Source: Marivita geojedonensis
Lineage (GTDB): Bacteria > Pseudomonadota > Alphaproteobacteria > Rhodobacterales > Rhodobacteraceae
NCBI RefSeq assembly: GCF_002115805.1
Contig: NZ_JFKC01000027.1
Location: 1 to 47,380 of the forward strand
Direction of reading: 5' to 3'
DNA length: 47,380 bases
Part shown: positions 18,608-47,380 of the stretch, piece by piece
Layout: every line of letters begins with the position of its first letter
Numbering within the stretch: the first letter of the stretch is position 1
Translations under genes and position numbers: made by a program
The notes under the pieces: model-generated
Told to the model about the DNA's origin: nothing
The model's input: the letters and a program-made list of their open reading frames with translations, nothing else
Database searches by the model: none

Positions 18608-18623
18608 GAGGCACGCTCCTCTA

Positions 18624-18719: not shown

Positions 18720-18792
18720 GTGCGTGCCGAAAAGACGAGTCGCCGCAAGGGGTTATCGGGCAGGTTTCAGGGGGATCAGCGGCTTGATTCGG

Positions 18793-19028: not shown

Positions 19029-19286
19029 CTACTGCTTTCCTTCAAAGTGCGTGATCAAGATATCGAGCATATCGGCATATGTACGGCGATCTTCTTTGCA
19101 AAGCGCTTTGAACCTTTGGATGGTGGTCATAGGGCCTTTGATACTGATCTGACCATCAATGCTTGCTTCCCGACTGGGCCAGCGTTCCATCGCATAAGGT
19201 TGTCGTGTCTCGTGTTCATTGCGGAGAGGTTCAGATTTGGAAGGTTCAAATTGTTTCAGTCTGTCGAGATCCAACGATTTAGGCAT
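19029..19286 (-). CDS. Small partition protein (ParB/centromere-binding type)
   Basis: An 85-residue protein translated right after parA, with its ATG (19286) overlapping the parA end by eight bases, which implies translational coupling. The N-terminal half is charged and probably disordered. The C-terminal half (ISIKGPMTTIQRFKALCKEDRRTYADMLDILI) could fold as a ribbon-helix-helix or short helical DNA-binding unit. By position it should be the centromere-binding partner of ParA and act on the palindromes at 20035-20145. The identification rests on context. The frame extends 28 codons upstream inside parA, but that part is a shadow. Confidence 0.7.
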   Translation of the reverse strand: MPKSLDLDRLKQFEPSKSEPLRNEHETRQPYAMERWPSREASIDGQISIKGPMTTIQRFKALCKEDRRTYADMLDILITHFEGKQ

Positions 19287-19947
19287 TTTGTGTTTCCTCG
19301 AGCAATTCGACAACCTCGGCAGCAAATGCTTGAGCGTTTGCAATGGCTTTATCAACACCATTGACGTCACTACGATCTAACTGACGCAATCCTCCTCCTG
19401 CATTATGCAATGAAGAAAACGCTGTGCGGCGATGAAGTTCAGTTTCAAAAACACGCCCTGCCCTCTTCAATTCAGAGTGTATGTGTTTTTCAAGTCTGCT
19501 CTTCACCGCGGCAGAAGTTCTTGCCAGCAAAATCGCTGCAGGAATGGGCCTGCGGCGAGCACGGCTCTCCATGGCAATTTCTGCTAAGGTATCTATCGCT
19601 GCATCCGCATCCTGCTGCTCTTCACCAGATGGAATGATGACAAAGTCAGACTCAGAAATTGCGAAAGACGTGAGTCGGCTGGCTGAACCCTCAAGATCGA
19701 TCAAAACAAAAGCTGCTTTGCTTTTTGCATCATCGATCTCAGATTGAATGCTTCGCTCTCCTCCACTCGAAATAACATCGAGAGAGGGGTGTGCCGGAGA
19801 CAATGATGCCCATCGTTTGAGACGTTGCGCGGGATCCGCATCAATCATGATGACACTTGTACCTTCAGCAAGCTCGGTGCCGAGAATGATTGCTGAGGTG
19901 GTTTTTCCCGCTCCACCTTTGGAGCTCGCAAATGAGATAACCGGCAT
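19279..19947 (-). CDS. parA: ParA partition ATPase
   Basis: A 222-residue ParA/Soj-type ATPase. The deviant Walker A KGGAGKTT is at residues 10-17 with the signature Lys10 and Lys15, followed by the DADPAQ A' motif and FVLIDLEGSA as Walker B. It lacks an N-terminal DNA-binding extension, so it is a type Ib-like short ParA that works with a small centromere-binding protein. It drives segregation of plasmid copies on the nucleoid. GAGGAG lies three bases before ATG 19947, a rather close spacing. It is on the same strand as repA and upstream of it, but separated by the origin. Confidence 0.92.
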   Translation of the reverse strand: MPVISFASSKGGAGKTTSAIILGTELAEGTSVIMIDADPAQRLKRWASLSPAHPSLDVISSGGERSIQSEIDDAKSKAAFVLIDLEGSASRLTSFAISESDFVIIPSGEEQQDADAAIDTLAEIAMESRARRRPIPAAILLARTSAAVKSRLEKHIHSELKRAGRVFETELHRRTAFSSLHNAGGGLRQLDRSDVNGVDKAIANAQAFAAEVVELLEETQNA

Positions 19948-30079: not shown

Positions 30080-30085
30080 GCACAG

Positions 30086-30114
30086 TTAGGAGGCTGAAAA
30101 GCTTGGCCTCCTAA
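30086..30114 (+). terminator. First hairpin after the 26318 gene
   Basis: TTAGGAGGC at 30086-30094 pairs with GCCTCCTAA at 30106-30114 around an 11-base loop. It starts seven bases after the stop codon. AAAG follows rather than T, so this may be an mRNA-stabilising hairpin ahead of the true terminator at 30155. Confidence 0.55.
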
Positions 30115-30154
30115 AGAAACCACTGATTAGGATATTATTCCTGACGTGGTCTGA

Positions 30155-30186
30155 CCCCGCACTGGATTTCCAGTGCGGGGTTTTTT
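30155..30186 (+). terminator. Rho-independent terminator after the 26318 gene
   Basis: A perfect 11-bp stem, CCCCGCACTGG at 30155-30165 and its complement at 30170-30180, has an ATTT loop and is followed by six T. It separates the adhesin from the GT41 gene at 30227. Confidence 0.95.
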
Positions 30187-30226
30187 ATGGATTGGTCTTG
30201 ATCATTTAGGCCATTAAAGAAGAGCA

Positions 30227-32137: not shown

Positions 32138-32333
32138 TAACGGTGGCTGTCAGACACTCATCCTTTCAAACCCATTGAGCTTATAAGGATGTGCTCTCAA
32201 GGGATCTGCAAATACCCAGCGTTGATTGGGGTGTCGAGGTGGGGGATCTTATGAAGATTTTCCGCATTGTAAGAACATCCTTAGTTTTTTGGGGCTTTTG
32301 AATGGCTCGTCAGAGAGTAGGTTGGGTATCTGA

Positions 32334-32972
32334 TTGACCAAGACCAAAGCTGAAGCGTCTCAAATACAGCCGGTCCTCGTGATTTCCTCCTACAGCAGTG
32401 GGTCCACGGCGGTAACAGGCTTCCTGGAGCGCTGTGGCGCCTACACTTGCCCGCCCCACACACGTACCAATGATGTTTTGACCCCTAATCCGCATGAGCC
32501 TGTGGCTTATAAAGAAGCTCTGTTGAAGCTCATCAACGAAGTGACACTGGAACCTGTTGGAAGACCAGCGGATTTCACCAGGTTTTTTGAAATTTGGTGG
32601 CAAGGTGAATGTGACAAAGCCAAAGCGCTTGGGCGGTCTCATATCGTTCTGAAACATGCTCTTCAGACTTTTGTCTTGCCGTATCTGAACCGTCGGCTTG
32701 CCCCAAAGTATGTCTTTGTAACTCGACCATTGAAGCATATCGAGGCAACGCGGGTACGGCGGAAGTGGCATCCTGTGCACGGCCAAACTGGCGCGCAAGC
32801 GATCTATCAGGCGTCTCACAATTTTCTGATAGAGAACTCCTGCCCATTTATCTCTGTTCCGTTTGAAGCCTTCCGCAAAGACGCGGCGCTGCGACAGAAC
32901 GTTTTGGACTATATCGGCCTTGAACCGACCCCAGATGCGCTGAAAACAGCCGAAACCTTCATACGATCGTAA
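32334..32972 (+). CDS. Sulfotransferase-like protein
   Basis: A 212-residue protein. Residues 14-32 (VLVISSYSSGSTAVTGFLE) form a P-loop of the PAPS-binding type, with Ser/Gly/Ser-Thr as in small bacterial sulfotransferases, and VFVTRPLKHIEATR (about 127-140) matches the 3'-phosphate-binding region. The reading frame has no ATG. The start is TTG 32334, directly after an in-frame TGA. A short frame ATG 32302 to TGA 32337, preceded by GGGG, ends on that TTG, so translation may be coupled from it. The protein probably sulfates a glycan or a glycosylated adhesin. It is in the same direction as the GT41 gene, with 196 bases between. Confidence 0.65.
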   Translation: MTKTKAEASQIQPVLVISSYSSGSTAVTGFLERCGAYTCPPHTRTNDVLTPNPHEPVAYKEALLKLINEVTLEPVGRPADFTRFFEIWWQGECDKAKALGRSHIVLKHALQTFVLPYLNRRLAPKYVFVTRPLKHIEATRVRRKWHPVHGQTGAQAIYQASHNFLIENSCPFISVPFEAFRKDAALRQNVLDYIGLEPTPDALKTAETFIRS

Positions 32973-33153
32973 ACTGATCTTCTCACCACCTCCCAAAGCC
33001 TCAAGGCGCCCCTGGCAGCCATGTTCGGCCCCGACCTCGGGCGGATCGTGTCAATTTGATGCAGTCAGACATGACCTCATGGGCAGAGCTTTTATTCATG
33101 GTTTTGGAGATGTATGTGGTGTCCCAAAGGTGTAATGACGAAAGGAGAACCTC

Positions 33154-33345
33154 ATGGCCAAGGTGACGATCGACGGCAAGGAATACGATACAGAAATGCT
33201 GTCTGAAGAGGCACGAAACAATATTCAGAACATCCAATATTGTGAGCAGAGGCTCGCCGAGCTTAAGCGTGAAATGGCTCTCGCGCAGACTGCGCGCAAT
33301 GCGTATGCACGCGTCTTGGCAAGCGCGCTGCCCAAAGATGCGTGA
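33154..33345 (+). CDS. DUF6447 family small protein
   Basis: A 63-residue protein with an MAKVTIDGKEYD start, then a helical region (AEELK-like, AELKREMALAQTARNAYARVL). The start and the TARNAYAR segment fit DUF6447 as I remember it; its function is unknown. AAAGGAG lies six bases before ATG 33154. It is 184 bases upstream of the type I secretion ATPase in the same direction, and such small proteins are often near type I secretion genes, so a chaperone or regulatory role is possible but not shown. Confidence 0.75.
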   Translation: MAKVTIDGKEYDTEMLSEEARNNIQNIQYCEQRLAELKREMALAQTARNAYARVLASALPKDA

Positions 33346-33529
33346 CTGGCTCTCTCGAGGTTGTCTGCCTTGCCTGCCTCACTAGAGTACGGACCTTTCA
33401 TCGAACGGTAAGGGGAGGTGCCGTTCAATTGCATCATACATCGCGCTGATGTATGAATTTGCAAGTTTGTCGGTGCCCGAGCAGTTAAGAAATGGTACCG
33501 TTTAGAACACAGCGAAAGGATGTTCGTGA

Positions 33530-35302
33530 ATGAAACCCACGTCACCTCTAAAAAGAGCATATGGGCGGTTCAAAGCGATCATCTTCGCTACGGTCGTGTT
33601 CAGCTTCTTCTCCAACCTGTTGATGTTTGTAGGGCCGCTCTACATGCTGCAGGTTTACGACCGGGTGCTTGCGAGCCGGAATGAATTCACGCTCCTGATG
33701 ATTAGCGCAATTGCCGTTGCGCTGCTTGTCACATACGGTCTGCTCGAGTTCATTCGTTCGAAAATGCTGGTTAGGGCCGGACTTCAGTTTGATGATATGC
33801 TCGCCAACCCCGCCTTCAATCGGGTCGTTCGCAAGCAACTTCTGGCCCCGAATTCTGGCGCTCACGTGACACTATACGACATTGATCGTGTGCGTGAATT
33901 TCTGACGGGGCAGGGCATTCTTTCCTTTTTTGATGCTCCTTGGGTTCCTCTGTTCCTGGCGTTGTGTTTTGCATTCCATCCCTGGTTGGGATGGGTGGCC
34001 ACCGGTGGTGCGCTGATCATTTTTGTGCTCGCCGTTGCTAATGAATTCGCGACGCGCAAGCTGTTGCAAGAGGCGGGCGGTGCAAGTCAGGGGGCCTCGC
34101 ATTTTGTAAATACTACTATGCAGAACGCTGAAGTCATCCGCGCTTTGGGTATGGAGCGCCAGCTGACGAAGCGGTGGCTCCAGCAACACGATCATGCACT
34201 GGATGTGCAGGCCCGAGCGAGTGCAAGATCCGGCGCGATTGTAGCATCAACCAAGTTCGTGCGCATGAGCTTACAGATCGCGATCCTCGGGACTGGTGCG
34301 TATCTTGCTATCCAGCAGCAGATTTCGCCCGGTATTATGATCGCGGCCTCGATCGTTATGGGCCGTGCCTTGGCGCCGGTAGAGCAGGCTGTAGGTCAGT
34401 GGAAGCAATTTGTTGGTGCCCGTGAAGCACATAAGAGACTGACCGAAGTGTTCGAAGCTCTTGATGACGAAGAAGATCGCATGGAGCTTCCTGCGCCAAA
34501 GGGCAATATTGTGGTCCAGGGCTTGATTGCAACAGCCCCGGGGGGCAAGGCTCCCATCTTGAAGGGAATTTCTTTCGGTGTATCCCAAGGCGAAGTTCTG
34601 GCAGTCATTGGTCCAAGTGGTTCCGGAAAGTCGACACTGGTTCGCCATTTGGTTGGTGCCATGCGGCCTCAGGCCGGTGCTGTGCGCCTGGAGGGCACGG
34701 AGCTTCATCACTGGGATAGCGAGCAACTTGGTCGCTACATGGGGTATATGCCACAGGACGTGAAGCTTTTCCGAGGAACAGTCTCGGAGAATATTTCCCG
34801 GTTTTCTGACAATGTAGATGACAATGAGATTGTCGCCGCAGCCGTTCTGTCTGGCGCACATGAGATGATCACCACCTTGTCGGACGGGTATGACACGGAT
34901 GTTGGTGATGGCGGGAACGGGCTTTCGGGTGGCCAGCGTCAACGCGTGGGATTGGCTCGAGCCGTATTCCGGGAGCCGAGTGTGATCGTCCTTGATGAGC
35001 CCAATTCAAATCTGGATGCACATGGTGAGCAGGCGCTGGCCAATTGTATTCAAGAGCTGAAAAAACGTGGCAAGACCATCATTCTTGTCACGCACAAAGC
35101 CAATCTTTTGGCGGCGTCAGACAAGACTTTGATGTTGGTCAACGGTCAAATCGAGAAGTTTGGCCCGACGCGTGAACTCTTTGCTCAAGCTCAGCAACAG
35201 GCAGGATCTGCTGCTGAGCAAAAGACGGGTCAAACGATAGCCAAGCCCGCAGCAGAAGCTGGCTCGGCCGTCGTACATATGACGGACAGCAAACGCAGCT
35301 AA
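33530..35302 (+). CDS. Type I secretion system permease/ATPase (PrtD/LapB-like)
   Basis: A 590-residue ABC transporter. Membrane domain at about 15-300, opening with SFFSNLLMFVGPLYMLQVYDRVL, the hallmark of the PrtD/HasD type. ATPase domain: Walker A GPSGSGKS at 361-368, signature LSGGQRQR at 465-472, Walker B VIVLDEP at 485-491 with NSNLDAHGE as D-loop. No N-terminal C39 peptidase-like domain, in keeping with RTX rather than bacteriocin substrates. It should export the DUF4214/RTX proteins of this plasmid across both membranes together with the adaptor at 35351 and a TolC-like channel. No TolC gene is present, so the host must supply it. AGGATG upstream of ATG 33530 may be the ribosome site. 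Confidence 0.95.
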   Translation: MKPTSPLKRAYGRFKAIIFATVVFSFFSNLLMFVGPLYMLQVYDRVLASRNEFTLLMISAIAVALLVTYGLLEFIRSKMLVRAGLQFDDMLANPAFNRVVRKQLLAPNSGAHVTLYDIDRVREFLTGQGILSFFDAPWVPLFLALCFAFHPWLGWVATGGALIIFVLAVANEFATRKLLQEAGGASQGASHFVNTTMQNAEVIRALGMERQLTKRWLQQHDHALDVQARASARSGAIVASTKFVRMSLQIAILGTGAYLAIQQQISPGIMIAASIVMGRALAPVEQAVGQWKQFVGAREAHKRLTEVFEALDDEEDRMELPAPKGNIVVQGLIATAPGGKAPILKGISFGVSQGEVLAVIGPSGSGKSTLVRHLVGAMRPQAGAVRLEGTELHHWDSEQLGRYMGYMPQDVKLFRGTVSENISRFSDNVDDNEIVAAAVLSGAHEMITTLSDGYDTDVGDGGNGLSGGQRQRVGLARAVFREPSVIVLDEPNSNLDAHGEQALANCIQELKKRGKTIILVTHKANLLAASDKTLMLVNGQIEKFGPTRELFAQAQQQAGSAAEQKTGQTIAKPAAEAGSAVVHMTDSKRS

Positions 35303-35350
35303 TTCTGTCGAGAAAACAAAATCTGTTGCTCTTTGAGGAGCCAATTACCG

Positions 35351-36643
35351 ATGGACAAGAAACCAAGTCCAAGACCCGTTGTTTTGGCAGGATATGTTCT
35401 AATCTTTCTGACTTTTGGAGTGCTGGGAAGTTGGGCAGCTGTGGCCAAACTTGACAGTGCGGTTGTGGCACCAGCGACAATTTCGTTGGAAGGTAATCGA
35501 CGTGTCGTACAGCACTTTGAAGGCGGGATCGTTGAAGAGATCCTCGTCTCTGAAGCTGATGAGGTGGAAGAAGGAGAGGTTCTCTTGCGCCTTAGTGCAG
35601 TCGAAGCGAGATCCAACCTGGAAGTGCTGTCGTCTCGACTTGATGTTGCCCGTCTGACTGAGGCGCGCCTTCTGGCTGAACGCGCCTTGTCGGACAAGAT
35701 CGATTTTCCCCAGGATCTCTTGTCAGAAGATCTCGATATGATGGGAGATGTGATTGCTGATCAGCGTGATCTGTTTGAGGATCGTCGATCCATCCTAAAG
35801 TCTCAGCAAGACATATTGACGGCGCGTGTGGAGCAGATCGAAGTCCAAATCGAGGGTCTCAATTTGCAGAAATCTGCATTTGAGCGCCGGATTGCCAACT
35901 ACTCTGAGATGCTGGATCGCATGCGGGATGGTGAAAGTCGCGGATTGATTCAGTCCAACCAGCTGTCGCAACGCGAAGATGAACTGATTGAGATTGAAGC
36001 CAATCTTGGGCAGGTGATTTCAGATATTGCTCAAGCGCAGGCCAGCATCGGCGAAACCAAACTTCAAGCGCTCCAGATGACCCAGGAATACCGGGAGCGC
36101 GCCAATACAGAGTTGGATGACATCCGAACAGAGATCAGTGAGCTGCAGGAGCGCCGCAAAGTTGCACAGGACGTGCTTGACCGAACGGAAATTCGTTCTC
36201 CTGGGTCCGGCACCATTCAGAATCTCAAGGTGCATACAGTTGGGTCTGTCGTTCGCCAGGGCGAGATCTTAATGGAGTTGGTACCTGAGGATGAAGAACT
36301 CATCATAAACGCACGTGTGTCTCCAATCGATAAGGATAATGTCGCTCCGGGTTTGGAAACTGAAGTCCGCTTTACAGCTTTTAAAACCAAGTTGACACCG
36401 ATCATGTTGGGTGCTGTCGAGACGGTTTCAGGAGATGTCATTACGCCGGAGAATTCTAACGAAGCGCCGTATTATCTTGCACGTGTGGTTGTCGACGAAA
36501 AAGATATTCCTCTTGAGATCAAAGATCGACTGACAGCAGGGATGCCGGCGGATGTGATCATAACAACCGGTGAACGTACTGTCGCAAATTACATCGTGTC
36601 GCCGCTTCTCGATGCCGTGCGTAAAAGCATGATCGAAGAATGA
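35351..36643 (+). CDS. Type I secretion membrane fusion protein (HlyD/PrtE-like)
   Basis: A 430-residue periplasmic adaptor. One N-terminal membrane helix (PVVLAGYVLIFLTFGVLGSW, about 10-30), a lipoyl-like half (VVQHFEGGIVEEILVSEADEVEEGEVLL), a long coiled-coil hairpin (about 85-270) and a beta-barrel region with the second lipoyl half (IRSPGSGTIQNLKVHTVG). It links the inner membrane transporter at 33530 to a TolC-like outer channel. ATG 35351 is chosen because GAGGAG is ten bases upstream; the frame opens 18 bases earlier with TTG. The gene starts 48 bases after the ATPase gene, clearly in one operon, and ends at a good terminator. Confidence 0.95.
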   Translation: MDKKPSPRPVVLAGYVLIFLTFGVLGSWAAVAKLDSAVVAPATISLEGNRRVVQHFEGGIVEEILVSEADEVEEGEVLLRLSAVEARSNLEVLSSRLDVARLTEARLLAERALSDKIDFPQDLLSEDLDMMGDVIADQRDLFEDRRSILKSQQDILTARVEQIEVQIEGLNLQKSAFERRIANYSEMLDRMRDGESRGLIQSNQLSQREDELIEIEANLGQVISDIAQAQASIGETKLQALQMTQEYRERANTELDDIRTEISELQERRKVAQDVLDRTEIRSPGSGTIQNLKVHTVGSVVRQGEILMELVPEDEELIINARVSPIDKDNVAPGLETEVRFTAFKTKLTPIMLGAVETVSGDVITPENSNEAPYYLARVVVDEKDIPLEIKDRLTAGMPADVIITTGERTVANYIVSPLLDAVRKSMIEE

Positions 36644-36675
36644 GATATTAGAGCAGACGCTACCGCTTAGTGACC

Positions 36676-36710
36676 AAGGACCGATGCATTGCGTCGGTCC
36701 TTCTTATTTC
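36676..36710 (+). terminator. Terminator of the type I secretion operon
   Basis: AAGGACCGA at 36676-36684 pairs with TCGGTCCTT at 36694-36702 around nine bases, then CTTATTTC. It lies 32 bases past the adaptor stop codon and between convergent genes, so it may work in both directions. Confidence 0.75.
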
Positions 36711-36735
36711 TGCGTATGAAAATCGCCTGTTCGGA

Positions 36736-38427
36736 TCAAGCGATCATATCAACGTCCCGAATATCGTCCTGAACGCCTATCAGGGAAACAATCTTCCCAT
36801 TGTCTGCTTCCCATTGGACATATTCGTAGTCTCCTTGGGCAACAGCTTGCTTGTCAATGAAGACAATGCCTCCGTTCCGGAGCTCCATGATGCCGAAGTC
36901 TCCGCTTTTACTCTGCATAAACTCCAGAACGCGTTGCGTTATAGCATCGAAATCATGGAGTTGAGTGGACTGGCTATCTATGTTTGTTGGTGCTTCAATC
37001 CATTCAAACAGATCAAATGCTTCATTCTTGTTGAGATTTGAGCTTATCCAAACGGATTCCTGTTCGAACTGGATTTTCTCCATTTCGAATTTTTGAGCCA
37101 ATATTGTATTTGCGAGCAAGGAAGAAGGTGCTTCATCCGTTTGCTCAGTTTCGAGAGCAGATGTCGCCTGATTCATATTTTCGTCAGGTGACGCCTGTTT
37201 TTCACTTGATACAGCAGTTATGTCGACTGCCTGAGACGAGGGATCCGATGAAGCTTCGTTCTTTCGTGGCGGAGATGCTCTTTCTGCCCCAGACGACGCC
37301 TCTTTGAAATTATCTAACAGATGATCCAGAACACTTGGGTTTTGTTGCTCAGATGATTGAACTGCCCGCGAGTTTGCATGCGCGCCGGATATGTCATTGT
37401 CTTGCCCAAGCTCGACACCAACAAATTCAGCAAGCATCTCGATAAGGCCATCCGGAACCTCTTGTGCATCAACATCGAGAGTTGCTGTTTTGTGAGTGGT
37501 ATCGTGTTGGTCGAGAAGTTCCAGCATCTCGAGGTTCTTTAGGACCTGACGTTGATTCTCGAGCAGTACAGTTTCTGACATGAACCCCATGGCAATCGCG
37601 ATTGTGCTTAACCCAATCGCGAAACCGTTCGTACTCAACGACAAACCCTGATGATGGTGCCCGTCACGTGACTGCAAGTGATCCTCAGACATCGCATGCC
37701 CATGGCCGTCATCAAGGAATGCCAAATCCGATGCATCTATGATATCAAGAGGCTCAATCTCGAGAAGCAGTTCCGGGTCGGCATTGTTGCTGCTACTGAC
37801 TTCAAACATCCCGCCGAAGTCAAAAGAAACACCATCTTCATTGTCCGCGTCTTCAGGCGCGAAGAGCACCAACTCTTCTGAAGCGAGGAACAAAGTCCAT
37901 ATTAGTGCAGCCAACATAGCAGATGGGTGCAAGCGTACTTTACCACCACGCTCCAAACGTATGATACGACGTTCAATGCCGTCTTGTGACTGCTGCTCTG
38001 GCAACGCTTGGTTTGTAAAGTCTGCTATCAGTTCGCCAAAATTTGCTCCTCTCAGGGGCCGTAGAACATTCGGGCTGTCCAAAAAGTACAGGCCATCGAT
38101 GCGGCAGAGGTGTATAAACACGTCACCATTGGCGTGGCAAAAAACAAACCAAGGATCACCCTCATCGGTAACGCCCCGGTCCGTCTCGACAGGTACATTT
38201 GCTTTGCTCAGCAGCTGCCTTACCCGGAACAGATCCGCAAGTTCCTGATTGCTCCAGTCCTTCTTGGGATCTGGTTGAGGGTTAGAAAAAGCAGGTTGTG
38301 AAAACCCACCTAGGCTGATCTCACCATCCTCATTTGTCTGAAACGACAAGGTTTGCTGCTCGTCCGCCAGAAAAGCCTGATCGGAGGAAGCGTTCTTTTT
38401 GTTCCGAAAGTCGAGGATTTTCGCCAT
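36736..38427 (-). CDS. Hypothetical protein with two membrane segments, next to type I secretion genes
   Basis: A 563-residue protein that I do not recognise. Residues about 58-140 form a globular domain (LFRVRQLLSKANVP, WFVFCHANGDVFIHLCRID, LYFLDSPNVLR). Two hydrophobic segments at about 169-189 and 268-283 likely cross the membrane, enclosing an acidic/His-rich loop (HGHAMSEDHLQSRDGHHH). Residues 330-450 are Ser/Glu/Gln-rich and disordered, and a folded end follows (FGIMELRNGGIVFIDKQAVAQGDYEYV). No signal peptide. It is convergent with the secretion operon and lies 74 bases downstream of an XRE regulator on the same strand. It may be a sensor or accessory factor for secretion; this is context only. 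Confidence 0.6.
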   Translation of the reverse strand: MAKILDFRNKKNASSDQAFLADEQQTLSFQTNEDGEISLGGFSQPAFSNPQPDPKKDWSNQELADLFRVRQLLSKANVPVETDRGVTDEGDPWFVFCHANGDVFIHLCRIDGLYFLDSPNVLRPLRGANFGELIADFTNQALPEQQSQDGIERRIIRLERGGKVRLHPSAMLAALIWTLFLASEELVLFAPEDADNEDGVSFDFGGMFEVSSSNNADPELLLEIEPLDIIDASDLAFLDDGHGHAMSEDHLQSRDGHHHQGLSLSTNGFAIGLSTIAIAMGFMSETVLLENQRQVLKNLEMLELLDQHDTTHKTATLDVDAQEVPDGLIEMLAEFVGVELGQDNDISGAHANSRAVQSSEQQNPSVLDHLLDNFKEASSGAERASPPRKNEASSDPSSQAVDITAVSSEKQASPDENMNQATSALETEQTDEAPSSLLANTILAQKFEMEKIQFEQESVWISSNLNKNEAFDLFEWIEAPTNIDSQSTQLHDFDAITQRVLEFMQSKSGDFGIMELRNGGIVFIDKQAVAQGDYEYVQWEADNGKIVSLIGVQDDIRDVDMIA

Positions 38428-38501
38428 AGGATAGCTGTCCCGATCAGTCTAAATCGTCACTTATCTTACTTCTGATCGGTCCTGCGATCTAGTGAAGATC
38501 A

Positions 38502-38807
38502 TCAGCCAGCGACGTCTTCGAACAGGATCTGATAGGTAAGAGGCTCGTAGTAGCGAAGCAGTTCGCGCACAAAGCTTTTGGGATCCTGCCCGAGTGCAAC
38601 AGCCCATTCCGCATAACGGTGCGCCGGAATCTTGCCACGCCCATTCTCGAGCTGAGAGATGAAGGTGTAGTAATCCAGCGACAAGCGGTCAGCCAGGTCC
38701 CGTTGGGACAAACCTTCAGCTTCGCGCAATGATTTGAGCCAAAGCCCAAGAGTAACGCGTTGTTCCTTGGCTTCTTCAGGTGTCGATTTGTGCAGCTCAG
38801 CAAGCAT
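38502..38807 (-). CDS. XRE family transcriptional regulator
   Basis: A 101-residue protein with a helix-turn-helix of the Cro/C1 (XRE) type at about 20-75: LKSLREAEGLSQRDLADRLSLDYYTFISQLENGRGKIP. The last 25 residues are a short extension. GAGG lies eight bases before ATG 38807. It probably regulates its own promoter, the membrane protein gene downstream (36736) and perhaps the adhesin-type gene at 39306, which lies divergently 498 bases away. No operator could be identified. Confidence 0.88.
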   Translation of the reverse strand: MLAELHKSTPEEAKEQRVTLGLWLKSLREAEGLSQRDLADRLSLDYYTFISQLENGRGKIPAHRYAEWAVALGQDPKSFVRELLRYYEPLTYQILFEDVAG

Positions 38808-39305
38808 AGCAAATCCTCTATTGGCAGCGGCGAGGGACCCAAGCGATCAGTATGCAGGGGTGTTTAGTACTTCACTATATAGCAGGATTTTGCCTATGGC
38901 AAACAGCATTGCTGCTTTTGAGTTGAGCGGCGCTGAATTAGCGACTACTGCAATAATACAAGGCAAGATCTGAAAAAATGTCCCCAAAAAGGGGCGGGTG
39001 TTTGGGCCACTAGCAGTGATTGAACACGTGAACTTCTGCGACTTGCGGCAATCCCGTAAGGCACATGTGCTGTCGCCGGACGGATTGGGCTGCAAAAAGA
39101 GCGCGTTCATTGCTGCGGATACGTCTGAAAAATCATCCCGCATATGGTATGACTGAGGCGAACAGCATTAATATGACGCCGCTTTCTTCTGTGGCTCATG
39201 AGCCCGTGGCTCTCGTAAATCACCCCAATTTGGACACATGCACTCCCGGTTGTCGCCCAAGTCTCGTTTTAGAGATCAGGCGGGGCTTGAACTGGAGAGT
39301 TTGAG
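38808..39305. other. Divergent intergenic region between the XRE and CAP-RTX genes
   Basis: The 498 bases hold no convincing gene. Open frames of up to 98 codons here have no ribosome site or recognisable sequence. A TATA-rich stretch at about 38870-38882 may be part of the XRE promoter. The region must carry the promoter of the 39306 gene and is the first place to look for XRE binding sites. Confidence 0.35.
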
Positions 39306-40748
39306 ATGTCTGCTGCCACCGCCAGTGATCTGGAAAGGTACATGTTAGACCTCGTGAACGAGGAGCGTATCAGCCGCGGCTTGAATGCTCTTGTTCTCGA
39401 TAAAGTCTTGAACGCGTCTGCGGATGCGCATTCGTTGTGGATGCTGGAGAACAACATCTTCAGCCATACCGGCGTCGATGGCTCGACGCCGACCGAACGC
39501 ATGACCGCAGAGGGATTCGATCTCTCTGGCTCATGGCGCACAGCCGAAAATATCGCTGCGCAAAGCGAGCGGGGGGCTCAAGGCCTGTTCGATGATGTGT
39601 ACGACCTGCACATTGCTTTGATGAACAGCCCAGGGCACCGCGAGAACATTCTCATGCCTGATCTGGAAGTGGTCGGCATCGGCATCCAGACCGGAACCTA
39701 CCGCTACGAAAGTGGCACATATTACTCAGTTATGGTGACGCAGAACTTTGCGATGACCGGCGGTCAGACAACGCCGGATGTTGCTAATGAAACGTCTGTT
39801 CCTCCCGCCGACTCCAATACGTCTCAGGATTTAACGGGTGTTCTTGTCGGAACCGCAACCGTTGAAAACTTGGTTGGGACCGTGCAACGGGACTTAATTG
39901 AAGGGTTGGGTGGTAACGACACTTTGACGGGTGGCCTTGGGGATGACTTGATTGATGGAGGCGCAGGTGTAGATACGGCAGTCTATTCCGGAGAGCGGTC
40001 TTCTTACACTGTGCAAATCTCATCAACCGGTGTGGTGATCACGGACCGGCGGCCATCACAAGACGGCACCGATACGCTCATCGATATCGAAAACCTACGA
40101 TTTGCCGATGGTGACTTCGATCTTGGTATCAGGTCAGGAGCTGCAGGCTTGTCGACAGAAGACTTCGCTGCAATTGTCGAGCTCTATATTGCCTATTTCA
40201 ATCGAGCACCTGCCGCACAAGGGTTGCTTTATTGGGCAACGCGTCTTGAAGATGGAATGACACTTCCAGAAATCGCAGAAAGCTTTTTTGGACAACCTGA
40301 GACGCAAAGAACTTATGCTTCATACTTGAACTCGGATGGCAGTCTGCAAGACACTGAAGCCTTTGTATCAGCTGTATTCAACAATGTACTCGGCCGGGAT
40401 CCTTCAGGACCATACTGGGTCAATGAACTGAACAACAATCCCGAAATAACACCGGCGATATTTATCTTGTCTGTTTTAAATGGCGCGAGAGCTGCCTCCG
40501 GAGGAGCAGGGGATGTCGCCTATCTCCAAGACAAAACAGATATCGGGGTCTATTTTTCAGCCATTAAAGGCCTGTCAGATTTCAGTGATACGATTTCTGT
40601 CATGGAGCTCTACAATGGCACACGGTCTAGCGTCAGCAATGCCGTCTCGGTAATCGATGAGATTCATGCGGATGCGCTCGATCCGATGTCTGGTGAATTT
40701 TTGATGCCTCTAGTCGGCGTTATTGATGATCCATTCGCCATTTCTTGA
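39306..40748 (+). CDS. CAP-domain, RTX and DUF4214 protein, likely type I secretion substrate
   Basis: A 480-residue multi-domain extracellular protein. Residues about 6-150 form a CAP/SCP domain with the cavity residues His54 (FSHTGVDG), Glu81 (AENIA) and His111 (SPGHRENIL). Residues about 188-225 carry RTX calcium-binding repeats (GLGGNDTLTGGLGDDLIDGG). Residues about 275-420 are a DUF4214 module (YIAYFNRAPAAQGLLYW, FNNVLGRDPSG). There is no Sec signal, in keeping with type I export. CAP proteins with this cavity bind metals or lipids, and some act as proteases; no specific activity can be claimed. GGAGAG is upstream of ATG 39306. Compared with the other two DUF4214 proteins, the module is at the C-terminus here. 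Confidence 0.88.
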   Translation: MSAATASDLERYMLDLVNEERISRGLNALVLDKVLNASADAHSLWMLENNIFSHTGVDGSTPTERMTAEGFDLSGSWRTAENIAAQSERGAQGLFDDVYDLHIALMNSPGHRENILMPDLEVVGIGIQTGTYRYESGTYYSVMVTQNFAMTGGQTTPDVANETSVPPADSNTSQDLTGVLVGTATVENLVGTVQRDLIEGLGGNDTLTGGLGDDLIDGGAGVDTAVYSGERSSYTVQISSTGVVITDRRPSQDGTDTLIDIENLRFADGDFDLGIRSGAAGLSTEDFAAIVELYIAYFNRAPAAQGLLYWATRLEDGMTLPEIAESFFGQPETQRTYASYLNSDGSLQDTEAFVSAVFNNVLGRDPSGPYWVNELNNNPEITPAIFILSVLNGARAASGGAGDVAYLQDKTDIGVYFSAIKGLSDFSDTISVMELYNGTRSSVSNAVSVIDEIHADALDPMSGEFLMPLVGVIDDPFAIS

Positions 40749-40776
40749 GTGATAAGAGCGATAATGGGAAGCGGCC

Positions 40777-41733
40777 TTACTGATCAGGTAAGTGATCTAG
40801 AACTTCAACCATACGCTGCGCAATTGTGTCATATGAAGAGAACTGAGAATGCAAAGCCTCTGCACCAAGCTGGTTTCTTACAGCCCCACACAGCGGTGCA
40901 CTCAATAAGCAAAGGTTCCCCTGATTAACCTCAAGGCAATAGATACGTCGCGTATTTTTACATCGCACCATGTCGATGCTCAGCACACATGTTTCGGGGA
41001 ACAAAGAGGCGATCCATGATGCCATTTCAACCATCTCGGAGTCATTAACAAGTTCGCACATACGGTTATCAGAAAAATTTGACGTTGCCTCACCACCAAC
41101 CAAACCGTCTATGTCTTTAACAAAAAAATCGTTAGGGGCTATTGTTTTGAAGCACATAATCGGGGCCCCAAGAAAAGTTGTCACCCGTGTACTTTCTGGC
41201 CGCTTACCTGTTTCGATATATTTCTGAAATATTGGCATAAATCTGGATTGGATATCCGATTTAAAAACATGCAAAATTTTTTCTCGTAATTTTTCAAAAT
41301 CCATTGATCTAAATACAAAAATACCCTTTGCCCTAACTGTTCCTGGCGCAGTGGTTTTCACGGCAATAAATTCCCCAAGATCCTCTAATTCCATATTCCT
41401 ATCCGGCTCAAAGAACACACTCGATGGCACGGGTACACCCGCAGTCTGAAGGTCACTAAATAGTTCAGTCTTCAATTTTTGATTAGAGAAAAATTTTGGT
41501 CCTGGAATGAAATCAAAAATTTGAGGTTGAAGATTGCTGTCCAGAGTGAATGTTGTGGTCTTGGATGATTCTATATTTGCAAGGTCAACCGGCACTATTT
41601 CACTGTCAAATGAGAAAAGTCGAATATCTGAAGTTCTTCTATAGAGAGCTTCTCGAATACACGAAATATCAGAAATCGTTGTGCGTTCATGGGTGTATGG
41701 CAATATCACTAGCGCTTGCTCATTTCTTTTCAT
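40777..41733 (-). CDS. ATP-grasp enzyme, RimK-like
   Basis: A 318-residue protein with a likely ATP-grasp fold. The N-terminal third (about 1-95) is a pre-ATP-grasp domain. LGEFIAVKTTAPGTVRAKGIFVF holds the first nucleotide-binding Lys, and CVLSIDMVRCKNTRRIYCLEVNQG has the Asp and Glu-x-Asn of the metal site near the end. Such enzymes join an acid to an amine or thiol using ATP. AGAGG precedes ATG 41733. It follows the CphA-like gene by 26 bases, so the two are an operon and probably act on the same product. No precursor peptide was recognised. The region is AT-rich, suggesting recent transfer. Confidence 0.7.
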   Translation of the reverse strand: MKRNEQALVILPYTHERTTISDISCIREALYRRTSDIRLFSFDSEIVPVDLANIESSKTTTFTLDSNLQPQIFDFIPGPKFFSNQKLKTELFSDLQTAGVPVPSSVFFEPDRNMELEDLGEFIAVKTTAPGTVRAKGIFVFRSMDFEKLREKILHVFKSDIQSRFMPIFQKYIETGKRPESTRVTTFLGAPIMCFKTIAPNDFFVKDIDGLVGGEATSNFSDNRMCELVNDSEMVEMASWIASLFPETCVLSIDMVRCKNTRRIYCLEVNQGNLCLLSAPLCGAVRNQLGAEALHSQFSSYDTIAQRMVEVLDHLPDQ

Positions 41734-41759
41734 CTGGATGCCTCTGTTGTAAACAAACT

Positions 41760-43667
41760 CTAATTAGATGCAGAGCGCAGGACTTCCAATGCACTCCTTA
41801 GATATTTGTCCTTGATTCTTTCACGAAATTGGTTTGCGTCTAATATTTCAAAATTTGAAGACATCGCACCTCTAATTGCATGGTTGTTCTTTGGAGAAAA
41901 TATTCCTTCCCGTACATGTGGAGAAATTAGCTCCAACACATTATATAGATCGGTGAGATCGCCGCTCCATTCAGAAACAAATATCACATCACACATATCT
42001 ATAGGCAGGCCACGCCTCAGCAAATCTTGATGATCGCAGATTAAAATAACGCCCTCAACCTCTGTGTCCATTAGTGAGGGAAGAATCTTCCCTTGAAGGT
42101 CGCTTGGTGACGTCGAGATTTGGTTCAGTGTATCGATTATATGTATCTCTTGGTTCGCCAATTTGGAGCGTATTTCATTTGAAATGATTTTTGCGTGACT
42201 TTTTATGTTCGTAAGGATTAATGATATGGGAATGCGGCCCTGTCCATCAATGTACGACTCGAATATCATATCAATTGATTCAGGGTAAATGGAGCCCATT
42301 TGAGGCGTTGCATTTACCTCGCAAATGGCAGCTCCATTTTCTTTCCAAGACTTTTTGTGGTTACTGGTAATAAAATCAATCCCTGCTATGTCCAGGCGTA
42401 AAAGGCGAGCGGCTTTTATACATAGATCAATGTTATCTTGATGAATTTCTTCGGATACCCGCTCTTTTGTGCCTCCTGCTGAGCTGTTTGGCAAGCGTCG
42501 TAGTTTAACAGTTTGGCCCTTTCTGGGTATTGAAAACTTGCTTAGGTTCTGGAGCTCCAAAAATCTTTCAACTTCTGTATCTATTTTTATTTTATACAGT
42601 CCAAACGTTCCCCGTCGTGTTCGCTGCGGGTTAGAATTGACCTCTTCGATAAGCTGTTCGATCGTTTTTTCCCCGTCACCCGTGACGCGGGCGGGATGTC
42701 GGGCCCAAGCACAGGCAAACTTTCCCTTGATTACTTCTACACGTACATCATATCCATCGATATGTCTCTCGATGAGTACATCTTTGCCAATCTTGCTAAT
42801 TTCCTGAAAAGCATCTTGGAGCTCAAATTCGTTGTTGAGATTGGGTTTAACTCCCTGTCCTTTTGCAAGATTTGGAGCCTTTACAACAACAGGGTATCCA
42901 TATTTTTCTACAAAATCGAGAGCGTGTTGGATGGATTGGACGCGTCTTTGCTCGGGGACCGACACATTCCCCATTTTGAGCAATCTGTTGATGTTTGCCT
43001 TCTGTTTTGCCCAGCTTACACTTATCGCGGGGCTGTCATCACTTATTGTGCTCCGAAAAAGCCGTGAATTTTTTGCCCAACCAAACTGCCAGACACCATC
43101 TGGAAGACCAATCATAGGTATGTTTCGTTTAAATGCGACATCAATCAGCTTGGGAGGGTTGCTCGCTTTTGGAGATGCTTTATCAAGATCATCAAGAATT
43201 CTATTCAGATTTATTATTTGCTCATTTTTCGAGTCTATACGCGAAGTGACGTCTATTTCTTTTTGGACTTCCTCTAAAAGTTTGGCGAGTAAAAAATTTG
43301 TTATTTTGGGAGCATACGTTGGCAGGGCCAATGTATAGATAATTCCAGATATATCTTTATATACACTTTTTGTCTCAACAATTTTTCCAGACTCGCATGT
43401 GGGAATTCTGCTGATATCCTGCAATACTTTTATTGCGTAGCATATTGCTTGAAGCAAATTTTCGCGATCGTTACCAGCCCAGTATGGTGGTTCATTTTGA
43501 ATATTTGAGCCTACTATTTCAGAAATGCAGTTGCTTAAATACACTGGCAGTGAACTTTGAATTTGCCTGTCAATTGGAAAGTGTAACTCACAATGGAGAA
43601 AGTATTGCTTTAATCCATACTTGTAACCGATATTCATGCGGGATTGGAGTATTTTGATTTCGTTCAT
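41760..43667 (-). CDS. Cyanophycin-synthetase-like ATP-grasp protein with decayed Mur-ligase end
   Basis: A 635-residue protein. Residues about 1-200 match the N-terminal part of cyanophycin synthetase. Residues 210-460 are a full ATP-grasp domain: VVVKAPNLAKGQGV (260-273), DVRVEVIKGK and ARHPARVTGDGEKTIEQLI (322-340), and LDIAGIDFI with CEVNATPQM (449-457). After GRIP (477-480), where CphA has the Mur-ligase P-loop, this protein has ILTNIKSHAK without the GKT motif; DLLRRGLPIDMCDVIFVSEWSGD (548-570) is the later Mur-like strand. The usual length of CphA is near 870, so the Mur domain is short and without ATP site. ATG 43667 is chosen; the frame opens 75 bases earlier with TTG. It should ligate amino acids or peptides using ATP, and is unlikely to make normal cyanophycin. 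AT-rich: 20 G/C of 60 bases at 43201. Confidence 0.75.
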   Translation of the reverse strand: MNEIKILQSRMNIGYKYGLKQYFLHCELHFPIDRQIQSSLPVYLSNCISEIVGSNIQNEPPYWAGNDRENLLQAICYAIKVLQDISRIPTCESGKIVETKSVYKDISGIIYTLALPTYAPKITNFLLAKLLEEVQKEIDVTSRIDSKNEQIINLNRILDDLDKASPKASNPPKLIDVAFKRNIPMIGLPDGVWQFGWAKNSRLFRSTISDDSPAISVSWAKQKANINRLLKMGNVSVPEQRRVQSIQHALDFVEKYGYPVVVKAPNLAKGQGVKPNLNNEFELQDAFQEISKIGKDVLIERHIDGYDVRVEVIKGKFACAWARHPARVTGDGEKTIEQLIEEVNSNPQRTRRGTFGLYKIKIDTEVERFLELQNLSKFSIPRKGQTVKLRRLPNSSAGGTKERVSEEIHQDNIDLCIKAARLLRLDIAGIDFITSNHKKSWKENGAAICEVNATPQMGSIYPESIDMIFESYIDGQGRIPISLILTNIKSHAKIISNEIRSKLANQEIHIIDTLNQISTSPSDLQGKILPSLMDTEVEGVILICDHQDLLRRGLPIDMCDVIFVSEWSGDLTDLYNVLELISPHVREGIFSPKNNHAIRGAMSSNFEILDANQFRERIKDKYLRSALEVLRSASN

Positions 43668-43953
43668 GCGTTTTATTGAATTCCGGCTCTTTTCTGTATG
43701 GTGCACAATTGAATCTGTATCCTTAGCTGGAGTGGTCCGCAATACAGTTGCCCGGCAAAAACCACGTCTTGGACGTCAAAGCGCCGGAATTCACCTGTAG
43801 TTCTTTTGAGCCTGTATGATGTTTGCGACCTGATGCTGGGGTCTGGCGGTGATCCAGAGGTGCGGGGAAAACGTACCAAGCGTGTTCGATGTCAACCCTT
43901 GGTCGGGCGAACCTAATACAGAGCGGCTGATCTAACAGCTTTTGAGGCAGAAA

Positions 43954-44601
43954 ATGCATGAAACCTGGAGTCGCTTGCGAGCGTTCAAATTAACTGTGTG
44001 TAAAATGGCGGGGCGTAGGGTCGACTTTACCCGTGCTTTGGCTGTTTCCATAGCCCTTATGCTTCCATCCATAGTTGATGCGGCAGGGCAGTTTCACGGT
44101 CCTCACCTAGTTGCGAAGTTCGCTGCCGATCCTCCAAGAGGCGCTGTGGACCTCTGCGTGCGCTATCAATGGGCGTGTAGTCCGAAGTGGGGAGCGGGCC
44201 CGTTGCCTCCCGACATACTGAAACTTGCAAAGCAGATTAACAATGACATCAATCGAAGGGTCCGCCAGATCGAAGACCAGCGACAGTATGGTCGCAAGGA
44301 GTACTGGTCTCTACCGACAAAGCGGGGGGGAGATTGTGAAGACTTCGCGCTTCTGAAAAAAGCGGCATTGATGCAGAGGGGAATTTCACCTGAGAACCTC
44401 CTGATAGCCACTGTTCTGGACCACAGACGCAACAACCATGCAGTTTTGGTTCTACGAACCACGGCCGGTGATTATGTCTTGGATAATGTGACCAATCGAA
44501 TTCTCTTATGGTCCAAGACACGGTATTCTTTCCTGAAAATGCAAGATCCAAATGCACCTCACAAATGGCACGCGTTGCTGGCGGGTGGCGTATTTAATTA
44601 A
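43954..44601 (+). CDS. LapG-like transglutaminase-like cysteine protease
   Basis: A 215-residue periplasmic protease of the bacterial transglutaminase-like cysteine peptidase family (Peptidase C93, BTLCP). The triad is Cys128 (GGDCEDFA), His162 (NNHAVLV) and Asp177 (YVLDNV); Glu129 and Asp130 stand where LapG binds calcium. A signal peptide with hydrophobic core at about 28-42 probably ends at Val-Asp-Ala; the long N-region suggests an alternative start at ATG 44005. ATG 43954 has GAGG six bases upstream. LapG clips the N-terminal anchor of RTX adhesins to release cells from surfaces, held back by the c-di-GMP receptor LapD. No LapD gene lies here, so control must come from the chromosome. 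The DUF4214/RTX proteins on this plasmid are candidate substrates. Confidence 0.88.
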   Translation: MHETWSRLRAFKLTVCKMAGRRVDFTRALAVSIALMLPSIVDAAGQFHGPHLVAKFAADPPRGAVDLCVRYQWACSPKWGAGPLPPDILKLAKQINNDINRRVRQIEDQRQYGRKEYWSLPTKRGGDCEDFALLKKAALMQRGISPENLLIATVLDHRRNNHAVLVLRTTAGDYVLDNVTNRILLWSKTRYSFLKMQDPNAPHKWHALLAGGVFN

Positions 44602-44680
44602 CGCATGCCGTGTCCCGCAGCCGTCGCGAACTCGCTGCCGTGCTTGTGTGGGAATGGTGTGCCAGTTCGTTTCTGCACGC

Positions 44681-44724
44681 ATGATCCTCCGACAGATGGG
44701 GTAAGTCATCGGTTGGAGGATCAT
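44681..44724 (+). terminator. Hairpin after the LapG-like gene
   Basis: Positions 44681-44698 pair with 44707-44724 in an 18-bp stem with two mismatches and an eight-base loop. It begins 79 bases after the stop codon. No T run follows directly. It probably ends or stabilises the protease transcript before the gene at 44802. Confidence 0.55.
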
Positions 44725-44801
44725 CGCAAGGCAGGCAAAGAAAAATTCTGAGGTCACTCAATTTTTCAATTATACTGAGAGTCTCTTCTGAGAGGCTTGT
44801 C

Positions 44802-45773
44802 ATGAGATTTTCTTATTCAACATCAATCCTGGTCCTTTCATTGGCTATGGCCCCGACACTACACGCTCAGGAATGCGATGAGTGCGAGTGCTACGAGTGC
44901 GATGATTACGAACCTGAACCTTCACCGGCACAGAACGCTTACAGGGACTACCGGGATCGTGATTCAAGGACGCCTCCAAACACTCCTGAGCCTCCCCGTC
45001 CTGGGATTATAATTCCAACGGACCCGCCGGAGCCAGTGGATCCACCAGAGCCAGTGGACCCGCCAGAGCCAGTGGACCCGCCAGAGCCAGTGGACCCGCC
45101 AGAGCCAGTGGACCCGCCAGAGCCAGCGGACCCGCCAGAGCCAGTGGACCCGCCAGAGCCAGTGGACCCGCCAGAGCCAGCGGACCCGCCAGAGCCAGTG
45201 GACCCGCCAGAGCCAACATTCAGATTTTTGTCAGATTCTGAAGATGGCCCGCTGCGCGAACGTCGCCTGAAGTCATTGAAAAAACAGTCGTCGCAAGGGT
45301 CGTCTTTTTCCGCAAACTCGCTTGATACAGACGCGATTGTCGAACGCCTCGAGCAGATGGAGCGTATATGCAAGCGAGTTCCGGATGAATACATCGTTGC
45401 ATGTTTTGCTGCGGCGTATCGTGAGTTGGCAAACGACATCCGTTCCAGTGGAGGGGATGAAGAAGTTCAAAAAGCTCTTTTGGATGCCGCTCGCAAACTT
45501 GACGCTCTGGTTGCGGGCAATCTGGATACAGAAAAACCTGCAGTTCGTGCACACCTGACATCGCCATCGGGGCAGAGATTGCGCTCTACACCACCGTTGC
45601 GCCCTGTACGCCCAAACACAGTCGAAAATGTGAAGCAGCAGGCAGCGAACGTTCTCGAAGAAGTGGAAACCGTTTTATTGCGATCCGCCTCGGACGACTC
45701 GTCAAGGGCGTTGTCCTATCAGAGAATAGCTGCCGCAGTGGGGTCGCATAAAGTTCTGCTTCGGTCTTCGTAA
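44802..45773 (+). CDS. Exported protein with VDPPEP repeats and shared C-terminal domain
   Basis: A 323-residue secreted protein of unknown function. The signal peptide (residues 1-22) ends at Leu-His-Ala before Gln. A short Cys cluster follows (CDECECYEC), which could bind metal or cross-link. Residues 74-138 are 11 copies of a six-residue Asp-Pro-Pro-Glu-Pro-Val/Ala unit. The C-terminal 180 residues match those of the protein at 8592-9761, with a shared FRFLSD, DAARKLDALV, RAHLT and final KVLLRSS. The two are paralogues with different N-termini and linkers. GAGAGG lies about eight bases before ATG 44802. It is in the same direction as the four-cysteine repeat protein at 46307, so all four repeat proteins cluster in two groups on the plasmid. 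Confidence 0.8.
   Translation: MRFSYSTSILVLSLAMAPTLHAQECDECECYECDDYEPEPSPAQNAYRDYRDRDSRTPPNTPEPPRPGIIIPTDPPEPVDPPEPVDPPEPVDPPEPVDPPEPVDPPEPADPPEPVDPPEPVDPPEPADPPEPVDPPEPTFRFLSDSEDGPLRERRLKSLKKQSSQGSSFSANSLDTDAIVERLEQMERICKRVPDEYIVACFAAAYRELANDIRSSGGDEEVQKALLDAARKLDALVAGNLDTEKPAVRAHLTSPSGQRLRSTPPLRPVRPNTVENVKQQAANVLEEVETVLLRSASDDSSRALSYQRIAAAVGSHKVLLRSS
45021..45215 (+). repeat. Eleven 18-bp tandem repeats coding for DPPEP(V/A)
   Basis: The unit codes Asp-Pro-Pro-Glu-Pro-Val, with Ala in a few copies and Thr in the last. Most copies are almost identical in DNA (GACCCGCCAGAGCCAGTG), unlike the more diverged repeat at 1874, which suggests recent expansion. Confidence 0.95.
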
Positions 45774-46306
45774 TGTCAGCGCAGCCTCTAAAAACTTAGA
45801 GGCTGCGGGCTGTATGTTCAGGGCTGATTTCCTTAAGGCGGCGAGCATGTCTCATCGCACACGTGTTGGCGTGCTTCATGCTAACCGGAGCCGGCTGGAA
45901 AGAATGGGTTCATAAACGATGTGATGCAATCGGTAGACGTGGAATGGTTCACCGACTGGAATAGACTCACCCTGTAACTGACAGTCCATTTTGGAGATAA
46001 TCTCACCCCAAGACCACGACCCGAAGACGCAATCGAGTTTGACCGATTCGCTGGCTTCTGTCAGAAGTTGTACTCATTTTTGGTTAACAATCTGCCTGAG
46101 AGGCGGATATTTTTCAAGTTCTGGAAAATGTGAGAACCACTCGCTTCCCCAGAATATATCAAAACAATTCAAATATTTACCAAGAACCTCAATGGCCTCA
46201 TGCGCTCTTGGAGGGGAGATTGTAATCAAACAATGAAAAATCTGTCATTTTTTGGGCTAACATACGCTGATTAAGACCTTTTTGTGTCCTATGGAGGGCA
46301 GCGTAA
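45774..46306. other. Intergenic region ahead of the 46307 gene
   Basis: Beyond the hairpin at 45780-45807 these 533 bases show no supported gene. An 81-codon frame at 45991-46236 has no ribosome site and a composition unlike the neighbours. GGAGGG at 46293-46298 is the ribosome site of the 46307 gene. The AT-rich part at 46220-46275 is the likely promoter. Confidence 0.4.
45780..45807 (+). terminator. Hairpin after the VDPPEP protein gene
   Basis: CGCAGCCTCTAA at 45780-45791 pairs perfectly with 45796-45807 around AAAC. It starts six bases after the stop codon. No T run follows, so it may be a weak terminator or stabilising hairpin. Confidence 0.6.
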
Positions 46307-47380
46307 ATGCGAAAATTTTGCTTTCTTAAACGATCTGTATCAACACTTGCAGTCGGTCTGATCGCCTTTGGGGGCTGGGTGAATGTTCCCGGAAGTGTTG
46401 CGGCTGGAAACCTAAAAGGTGTTTCTGATCCCGTTGTGCGGCCTTATGCCAAGCAAGGGCGTACACTCACAGTACCATCCGGCCTTTGCACTTGGAATTG
46501 GGCCCACCCTTCTACATCTCAGGTAGTTGCAAGTTTGGCTGAGAGTCCAACATTCCATCGAAATATGCGTTATGTGGCAGAGCAGTGTCCGACAGTACTC
46601 TGCGATGCAGATTGGAACAGCAACTCCTTGAACTCCGCCGCAGAATTGATGCAAGGGCGGCGTTACTACCAATCACTTGTGCAATCTTTGCAAACTGCGT
46701 GCCCGAGGATTGCGCTGGTTCTTTCTGACAATGCGACAGCATCGATAGGAGACAGCCGCAACCCTGCTGCTGAAGGCCGTGCACGGGGTCCGGACGAAGA
46801 CCGGATCGTTGGCGGGGACACTTCAGGACCAAATGGTCCACCGAGTGAGCCGCCAGTTGGTCCGCCGCCGTCACCACCGCCGTCGCCACCGGGGTCACCA
46901 CCTTCGCCACCGGGGTCACCACCTTCGCCACCGGGGTCGCCACCGTCGCCACCGGGGTCGCCACCGTCGCCACCGGGGTCACCGCCGTCGCCACCGGGGT
47001 CACCACCGTCGCCACCGGGGTCACCACCGTCACCACCGGGGTCGCCACCGTCACCACCGGGGTCGCCACCGTCGCCACCGGGGTCACCACCGTCGCCACC
47101 GTCACCACCGGGGTCGCCACCGTCGCCACCGGGGTCGCCACCGTCACCACCGGGGTCGCCACCGTCACCACCGGGGTCGCCACCGTCACCACCGGGCAAC
47201 AGTGGCTGCAGAAGTGACTGCAACAATGGCTTCGGGAATGATGATCAGGCTGCACCCGGTGGTTCAGCTGAGAATAACAAAGCTGAGAATGAAGGAGCTA
47301 CCGACGATACCAATCCTGATGGCACAGGCACTCAGGGTAACAATGGGAATAACGGCAACAATGGTAACAATGGCAACAAT
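46307..47380 (+). CDS. Exported four-cysteine protein with PPSPPGS and GNN repeats (continues at base 1)
   Basis: The frame is open to the end of the window and continues in phase at bases 1-39, giving 370 residues. A signal peptide (hydrophobic core about 12-22, likely cut near Ala32-Ala33) is followed by the same domain as in the gene at 1382: Cys61, Cys94, Cys99 and Cys132 with spacings of 33, 5 and 33 (33, 5 and 32 in the paralogue), plus shared NMRYV and LMQGR segments. Residues about 190-300 are Pro-Pro-Ser-Pro-Pro-Gly-Ser repeats; a short two-cysteine segment (CRSDC) and Gly-Asn-Asn repeats close the protein. ATG 46307 has GGAGGG eight bases upstream. It is secreted; function unknown, probably matrix or surface. 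Confidence 0.85.
   Translation, partial: MRKFCFLKRSVSTLAVGLIAFGGWVNVPGSVAAGNLKGVSDPVVRPYAKQGRTLTVPSGLCTWNWAHPSTSQVVASLAESPTFHRNMRYVAEQCPTVLCDADWNSNSLNSAAELMQGRRYYQSLVQSLQTACPRIALVLSDNATASIGDSRNPAAEGRARGPDEDRIVGGDTSGPNGPPSEPPVGPPPSPPPSPPGSPPSPPGSPPSPPGSPPSPPGSPPSPPGSPPSPPGSPPSPPGSPPSPPGSPPSPPGSPPSPPGSPPSPPSPPGSPPSPPGSPPSPPGSPPSPPGSPPSPPGNSGCRSDCNNGFGNDDQAAPGGSAENNKAENEGATDDTNPDGTGTQGNNGNNGNNGNNGNN
46889..47197 (+). repeat. Fourteen-unit 21-bp tandem repeat coding for PGSPPSP
   Basis: GGGTC(G/A)CCACC(G/T)TC(G/A)CCACC-type units of 21 bp recur 14 times; one interval is 30 bp. Both strands are open across it, which explains several false open frames on the minus strand. Together with the GNN repeat at 47339-47380 and 1-36 it makes this gene a natural breakpoint for assembly. 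Confidence 0.93.

Follow-up and report, generated by a model that had tools for sequence, protein, structure and literature searches.

Two kinds of known replicon bear on the sequence analysed here. Roseobacter biofilm plasmids are extrachromosomal replicons with cell-surface genes, and those described in one published account carry a rhamnose operon (PMC9426580). Closed plasmids of Sagittula and Roseivivax encode RepA proteins that are 79-84% identical to the RepA reported below. Two of these, from Sagittula sp. P11 (38.6 kb, RepA 79% identical) and Sagittula sp. MA-2 (72.6 kb, RepA 84% identical), are recorded as circular.

The window, by which we mean the whole stretch of 47,380 bases analysed, resembles the biofilm plasmids in being, very probably, an extrachromosomal replicon with cell-surface genes, and it shares with both Sagittula plasmids a parA or parA-like gene followed by a small overlapping hypothetical gene, as well as a cargo of surface polysaccharide genes. 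In contrast to the biofilm plasmids, it lacks a rhamnose operon: no rfbABCD-type family (rfb/rml) was among the Pfam matches of the 30 larger open reading frames (ORFs) scanned. The Sagittula plasmids do have such genes, rfbABCD in MA-2 and rfbC in P11. Conversely, neither a type I secretion system (T1SS) nor a DUF4214 gene, both present in the window, appears in the Sagittula gene tables, which are incomplete (49.0 of 72.6 kb in the case of MA-2). The same Pfam matches of 30 ORFs contained no relaxase or type IV secretion genes.

The replication initiator RepA of the window (17570-18748, minus strand) matches PF10134 with an E value of 1.9e-86 and 289.7 bits against a cut-off of 27, and is the sole PF10134 match in the genome. 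Beside it lie iteron-like direct repeats (18623-18855), with copies of ~16-17 bp at 18623-18719 and three 22-bp copies at 18793-18855; they are conserved with relatives, where like repeats adjoin repA of the congener contigs G015:C15 and G010:C9, and are putative RepA sites. A ParA-like partition ATPase (19279-19947, minus strand) was recognized by profile match to the VirC1/ParA families, at 106 of the 180 bits set as the NCBIfam ParA_partition cut-off. The end of its gene is overlapped by an 85-aa ORF (19029-19286, minus strand), which had no NCBIfam match and whose position makes it a possible partition partner. The first-pass annotation had named repA, iterons and parA; the former two hold, and the third is better described as a ParA-like ATPase below cut-off. 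A closed plasmid of the PF10134/iteron type is a known kind in this bacterial group, and related replicons exist in the genus. On the comparisons set out below, we regard the window as very probably a closed circular RepA/iteron plasmid of ~47.4 kb, closed in one form or another. Its relatives suggest that the host is probably an alphaproteobacterium of the Roseobacter group.

The window corresponds to an entire contig (C20, NZ_JFKC01000027.1, bases 1-47380) of a draft genome (G000; 4,313,167 bases, 73 contigs, completeness 100), and both window ends are contig ends. An ORF on the plus strand (46307-47380) starts with an ATG preceded by GGAGG and is still open after 358 codons, where the window stops. 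Bases 1-39 of the same strand read GNNGNNGNNGNK* and continue its frame, as the earlier reading of bases 1-39 had proposed, supplying the last four Gly-Asn-Asn/Lys units and a TGA. Joining the ends thus gives a Gly-Asn-Asn tract of nine 9-bp units plus TGA (84 bp) within a single ORF, A1, of 1113 nt (370 aa) with one stop. The longest open stretch across the junction in the other five reading frames is 226 aa, against 370 aa in the A1 frame. An intrinsic-terminator-like site follows on the plus strand 38 bases past the stop, its 11-pair stem leading into TTATACTTCG; the site proposed before at 78-105 is present, with the stem at 78-103. A1 is split between the two ends and recovered only by circular treatment, which agrees with the remark that the joined gene is invisible in a linear annotation.

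How much weight the reading frame carries is limited by the repeat itself. That the last gene ends at base 47380 on a codon boundary was correctly noted, and this is partly forced: a cut at any boundary of a 9-bp unit keeps the frame. Because the unit preserves frame, continuity taken alone is weak evidence. Matching unit phase at both contig ends would be expected by chance in about 1 in 9 cases. The two ends resemble each other closely: bases 1-35 are 91% identical to 47336-47370 (genome search, E 6e-7; window self-comparison, E 2e-6), and a 20-bp maximal repeat shared with 47336-47355 begins exactly at base 1. The contig has an exact suffix-prefix overlap of 0 bases and so lacks the customary sign of circularity, which counts against closure.

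The place of the break is informative in its own right. A random cut would hit the 84-bp tract of a 47,380-bp molecule with a chance of 0.0018, so the place is not random and the repeat was probably involved. Longer exact repeats on the same contig, namely 60-mers at 45045-45215 and 50-mers in the proline tract of A1, were assembled through, and the longest exact internal repeat of the Gly-Asn-Asn tract, if joined exactly, is 20 bp. That the assembler passed longer repeats yet stopped here leaves room for missing units: the molecule could be circular while the contig has lost Gly-Asn-Asn units, either because the true A1 is longer or because plasmid copies differ in their number of units, which would then be why the assembler stopped. 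A slip of 9 bp would leave the frame intact. On the other hand, the two ends agree in unit phase, and the order of units across the 47380/1 junction repeats the order found at 47354-47373. We consider a loss of units possible but the less likely case, and an exact closure with nothing lost reasonably probable. Under closure, the assembler would have broken the circle within the Gly-Asn-Asn stretch of A1 and so divided the gene, and 46307-47380 joined to 1-39 would be transcribed as a single unit up to the terminator at 78-103.

Both halves of A1 are unique in the draft. A three-unit Gly-Asn-Asn pattern allowing up to 2 mismatches matched the genome at five places, each of them at one or the other end of C20; the pattern run backwards as a control had three matches in the genome, which counts against closure. 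The N-terminal 171 aa of A1 matched twice in the genome, to A1 itself and to its paralogue A2, both on C20, and the matches of bases 1-300 were confined to C20. Taken together, the pattern and N-terminal searches indicate that the draft holds one head without a tail and one tail without a head, and neither A1 half was found on any other contig of the draft.

We also compared the contig tips with those of other contigs (n = 47, 2 masked), comprising 35 of 72 starts and 12 of 72 ends. Twenty of the 47 end in 5-11 bases of TAGGGTCAGGA, which resembles an insertion-sequence end. The tips of C20 are free of TAGGGTCAGGA, have 20 bases in common with each other, and share no stretch of at least 20 bases with the 47 other tips. 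It seems that one dispersed repeat, perhaps an insertion sequence, lies behind many breaks in this draft. Many of its contigs stop just inside that repeat; C20 stopped in a microrepeat of its own. Elsewhere in the same comparison, the ends of contigs C1 and C25 were found to share 82 bases.

The arrangement of backbone genes in related contigs provides a separate line of evidence. The backbone genes considered comprise a T1SS ABC transporter with its HlyD adaptor (33530-36643, plus strand), which is shared with congener contigs; a 563-aa protein of unknown function (36736-38427, minus strand); and ABC1, an MsbA-like ABC transporter (4540-6351, plus strand) that scores below the MsbA cut-off. 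A search with the T1SS ABC protein covered 21 genomes (the own genome, 12 of the 16 congeners, and 8 from the class) and gave strong matches on four congener contigs: G003:C15 (86%), G010:C9 (84%), G015:C15 (84%) and G016:C20 (71%). These four were fetched in full and are thus a sample chosen by the T1SS ABC match, not a random one.

The most similar of them, G015:C15 (34,689 bp), has identical ends of 77 bases, across which its T1SS gene runs; the identical ends of the other three contigs amount to 1-3 bases. Its RepA is 88% identical to that of the window, and like repeats stand beside its repA. Read as a circle, it carries in turn ABC1, a CAP gene, RepA, two GT genes, ParA, a 312-aa protein, DUF4214, T1SS, HlyD, the 563-aa protein and a CAP fragment before returning to ABC1. 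From ParA to ABC1, the genes for ParA, the 312-aa protein, DUF4214, T1SS, HlyD, the 563-aa protein and ABC1 follow the same circular order in the window, and the full order, GT and CAP genes apart, arises there only with the ends joined. G015:C15 differs from the window in being 12.7 kb shorter, in having no A or B genes that we could find, in the placement and orientation of its two GT genes near repA, and in having two CAP/DUF4214 matches, one of them partial.

The distance from the 563-aa gene to ABC1 is 2.7 kb in G015:C15, 0.6 kb in G016:C20 and 14.3 kb in G003:C15. In the window the two genes lie far apart linearly, and 13.5 kb apart through the junction only. In G010:C9 they are separated by 50 kb along the contig (27 kb the other way round, if it is circular). 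Three of the four related contigs thus appear to support the neighbourhood created by joining the ends, and one does not. ABC1 has the same orientation relative to T1SS as in the window in G015:C15 only, being inverted in the other three; in G010:C9 repA is inverted too, which counts against a shared order, and G003:C15 gave no match to RepA. Since genes in these replicons clearly change their order, we take the neighbourhood as support, not proof. A near-identity search of the plasmids collection with bases 30000-47380 returned pieces of 1% of the query or less in 32 records. The DUF4214 protein gave no more than partial matches, and the DUF6065 gene (304-1053) matched 63 records, 61 of them from Sinorhizobium, which is of no help for the junction.

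These data bear on whether the contig might instead be a linear piece of a larger replicon whose ends belong to two different genes with similar tails. A draft in 73 contigs and the missing end overlap would suit such an arrangement. It sits poorly with the finding that no other contig carries such a Gly-Asn-Asn stretch or a further A gene, with the proximity of genes from the two arms of the window in three of four related contigs, and with the absence from the C20 tips of the sequence present at 20 of 47 other tips; we judge it improbable. Integration into the chromosome, or a linear replicon, is more improbable still, given the contig's own initiator, iteron-like repeats and ParA-like gene and the identical ends of a related contig. 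We return to closure as the preferred reading, supported by the window being a complete contig, by the absence of the A1 halves from other contigs and by the neighbourhood in relatives. The complete circle proposed in the first-pass annotation is supported in this respect; less certain is the exact figure of 47,380 bp, because the contig was cut inside the 84-bp tract and does not reveal how many copies of the unit there really are.

The gene interrupted by the contig ends belongs to one of two pairs of paralogues with repeat tails. A1 begins with a signal-peptide-like N-terminus (judged by eye) and a conserved domain of ~130 aa, followed by a (PPSPPGS)n tract at 46865-47196 and the Gly-Asn-Asn tract, whose first part occupies 47336-47380. 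Its paralogue A2 (1382-2434, plus strand, with the ATG chosen by eye) has the same domain at 45-50% identity and a (NEPGPG)n tract. Between the two genes, across the junction, a 41-bp stretch (1119-1159, plus strand) is similar to A1 46751-46791 and may be a decayed A1-like remnant. When the region 1054-1384 was compared with three stretches and their scores with those of shuffled sequences, its score against A1 was above all of the shuffles (0 of 300 reached it), and its scores against the stretch upstream of A1 (101 of 300) and against A2 (210 of 300) were not. The A family thus straddles the junction, and the possible remnant and A2 beyond it would fit a local duplication across the junction.

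The second pair consists of B1 (44802-45773, plus strand), which combines a (VDPPEP)n tract with a C-terminal domain of ~190 aa, and B2 (8592-9782, minus strand), which is 50% identical to B1 over that domain. Within each pair, the domain is kept (~50% identical) and the low-complexity repeat tract differs. A1, B1 and B2 matched no Pfam family. Gene A had no relatives in 16 congeners, in the plasmids collection or in viral_contigs. A draw of 394 genomes of the family, the own genome included, gave two weak matches besides the own ones (41% over 63 aa, E 3e-4; 37% over 57 aa, E 7e-4), which we attribute to chance from their surrounding ORFs; the only match in genome_contigs, from Pseudomonas (33% over 48 aa), was also judged to be chance. 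The collections searched hence offer no convincing A relative outside the own genome, and with it no uncut homologue against which the junction could be checked. An AlphaFold2 model of the A domain built from two sequences had a mean pLDDT of 49 and was not used. Most likely A1 is exported and combines a single small domain with long tails of low complexity, and the A and B proteins together are most likely exported surface or matrix proteins in which the tails serve as spacers.

Besides A and B, the plasmid carries a type I secretion system, RTX/DUF4214-type proteins and glycosyltransferases, a combination that makes a role at the cell surface likely. Two of the RTX/DUF4214-type proteins (11837-14446 and 26318-30079) are 57% identical over their first ~270 residues and not alignable beyond. 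Co-resident with these proteins and the T1SS is a gene for a Peptidase_C93 protein of the LapG family (43942-44601, plus strand), which reaches 42 of the 320 bits of the LapG equivalog.

An orphan ORF of 522 aa (10026-11594, plus strand) matches phrog_2206, the virion RNA polymerase family of N4-type phages (E 2e-191), at the C-terminal end only (2879-3402 of 3406). Matches were found in 465 of 50,697 phage records, the best at ~42% in Rhizobium and Sinorhizobium phages, and in 2 of 72,556 plasmid records, at 27% over 18% of the query. The congener contig G016:C20 ends within a partial homologue (55%). The C-terminal domain of the virion RNA polymerase is linked to encapsidation in a passage that cites unpublished data (PMC4496689, ref. 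78). The plasmid ORF could be a relic, or could act as a decoy or in interference against N4-like phages.

The region 7593-8336 (minus strand) contains an IspD-family gene scoring 195.9 bits against the TIGR00453 cut-off of 181.3. No other full-length IspD-family gene was found in the genome, in which ispF is on contig C23. This raises the thought that isoprenoid synthesis depends on a 47-kb plasmid, which would then be indispensable; we consider this rather unlikely. In the genus, 8 of 17 genomes have ispF but no IspD that exceeds the TIGR00453 cut-off, showing only partial PF01128 matches such as those in 460-aa frames resembling GlmU, so another or more divergent enzyme probably catalyses this reaction there. 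The plasmid copy may function in making surface sugars.

Treated as a circle, the contig yields A1 together with its terminator and settles which genes surround the A and B paralogues. It is probably a complete plasmid, of a type also present elsewhere in the genus, and what it carries is of wider interest than its circularity.
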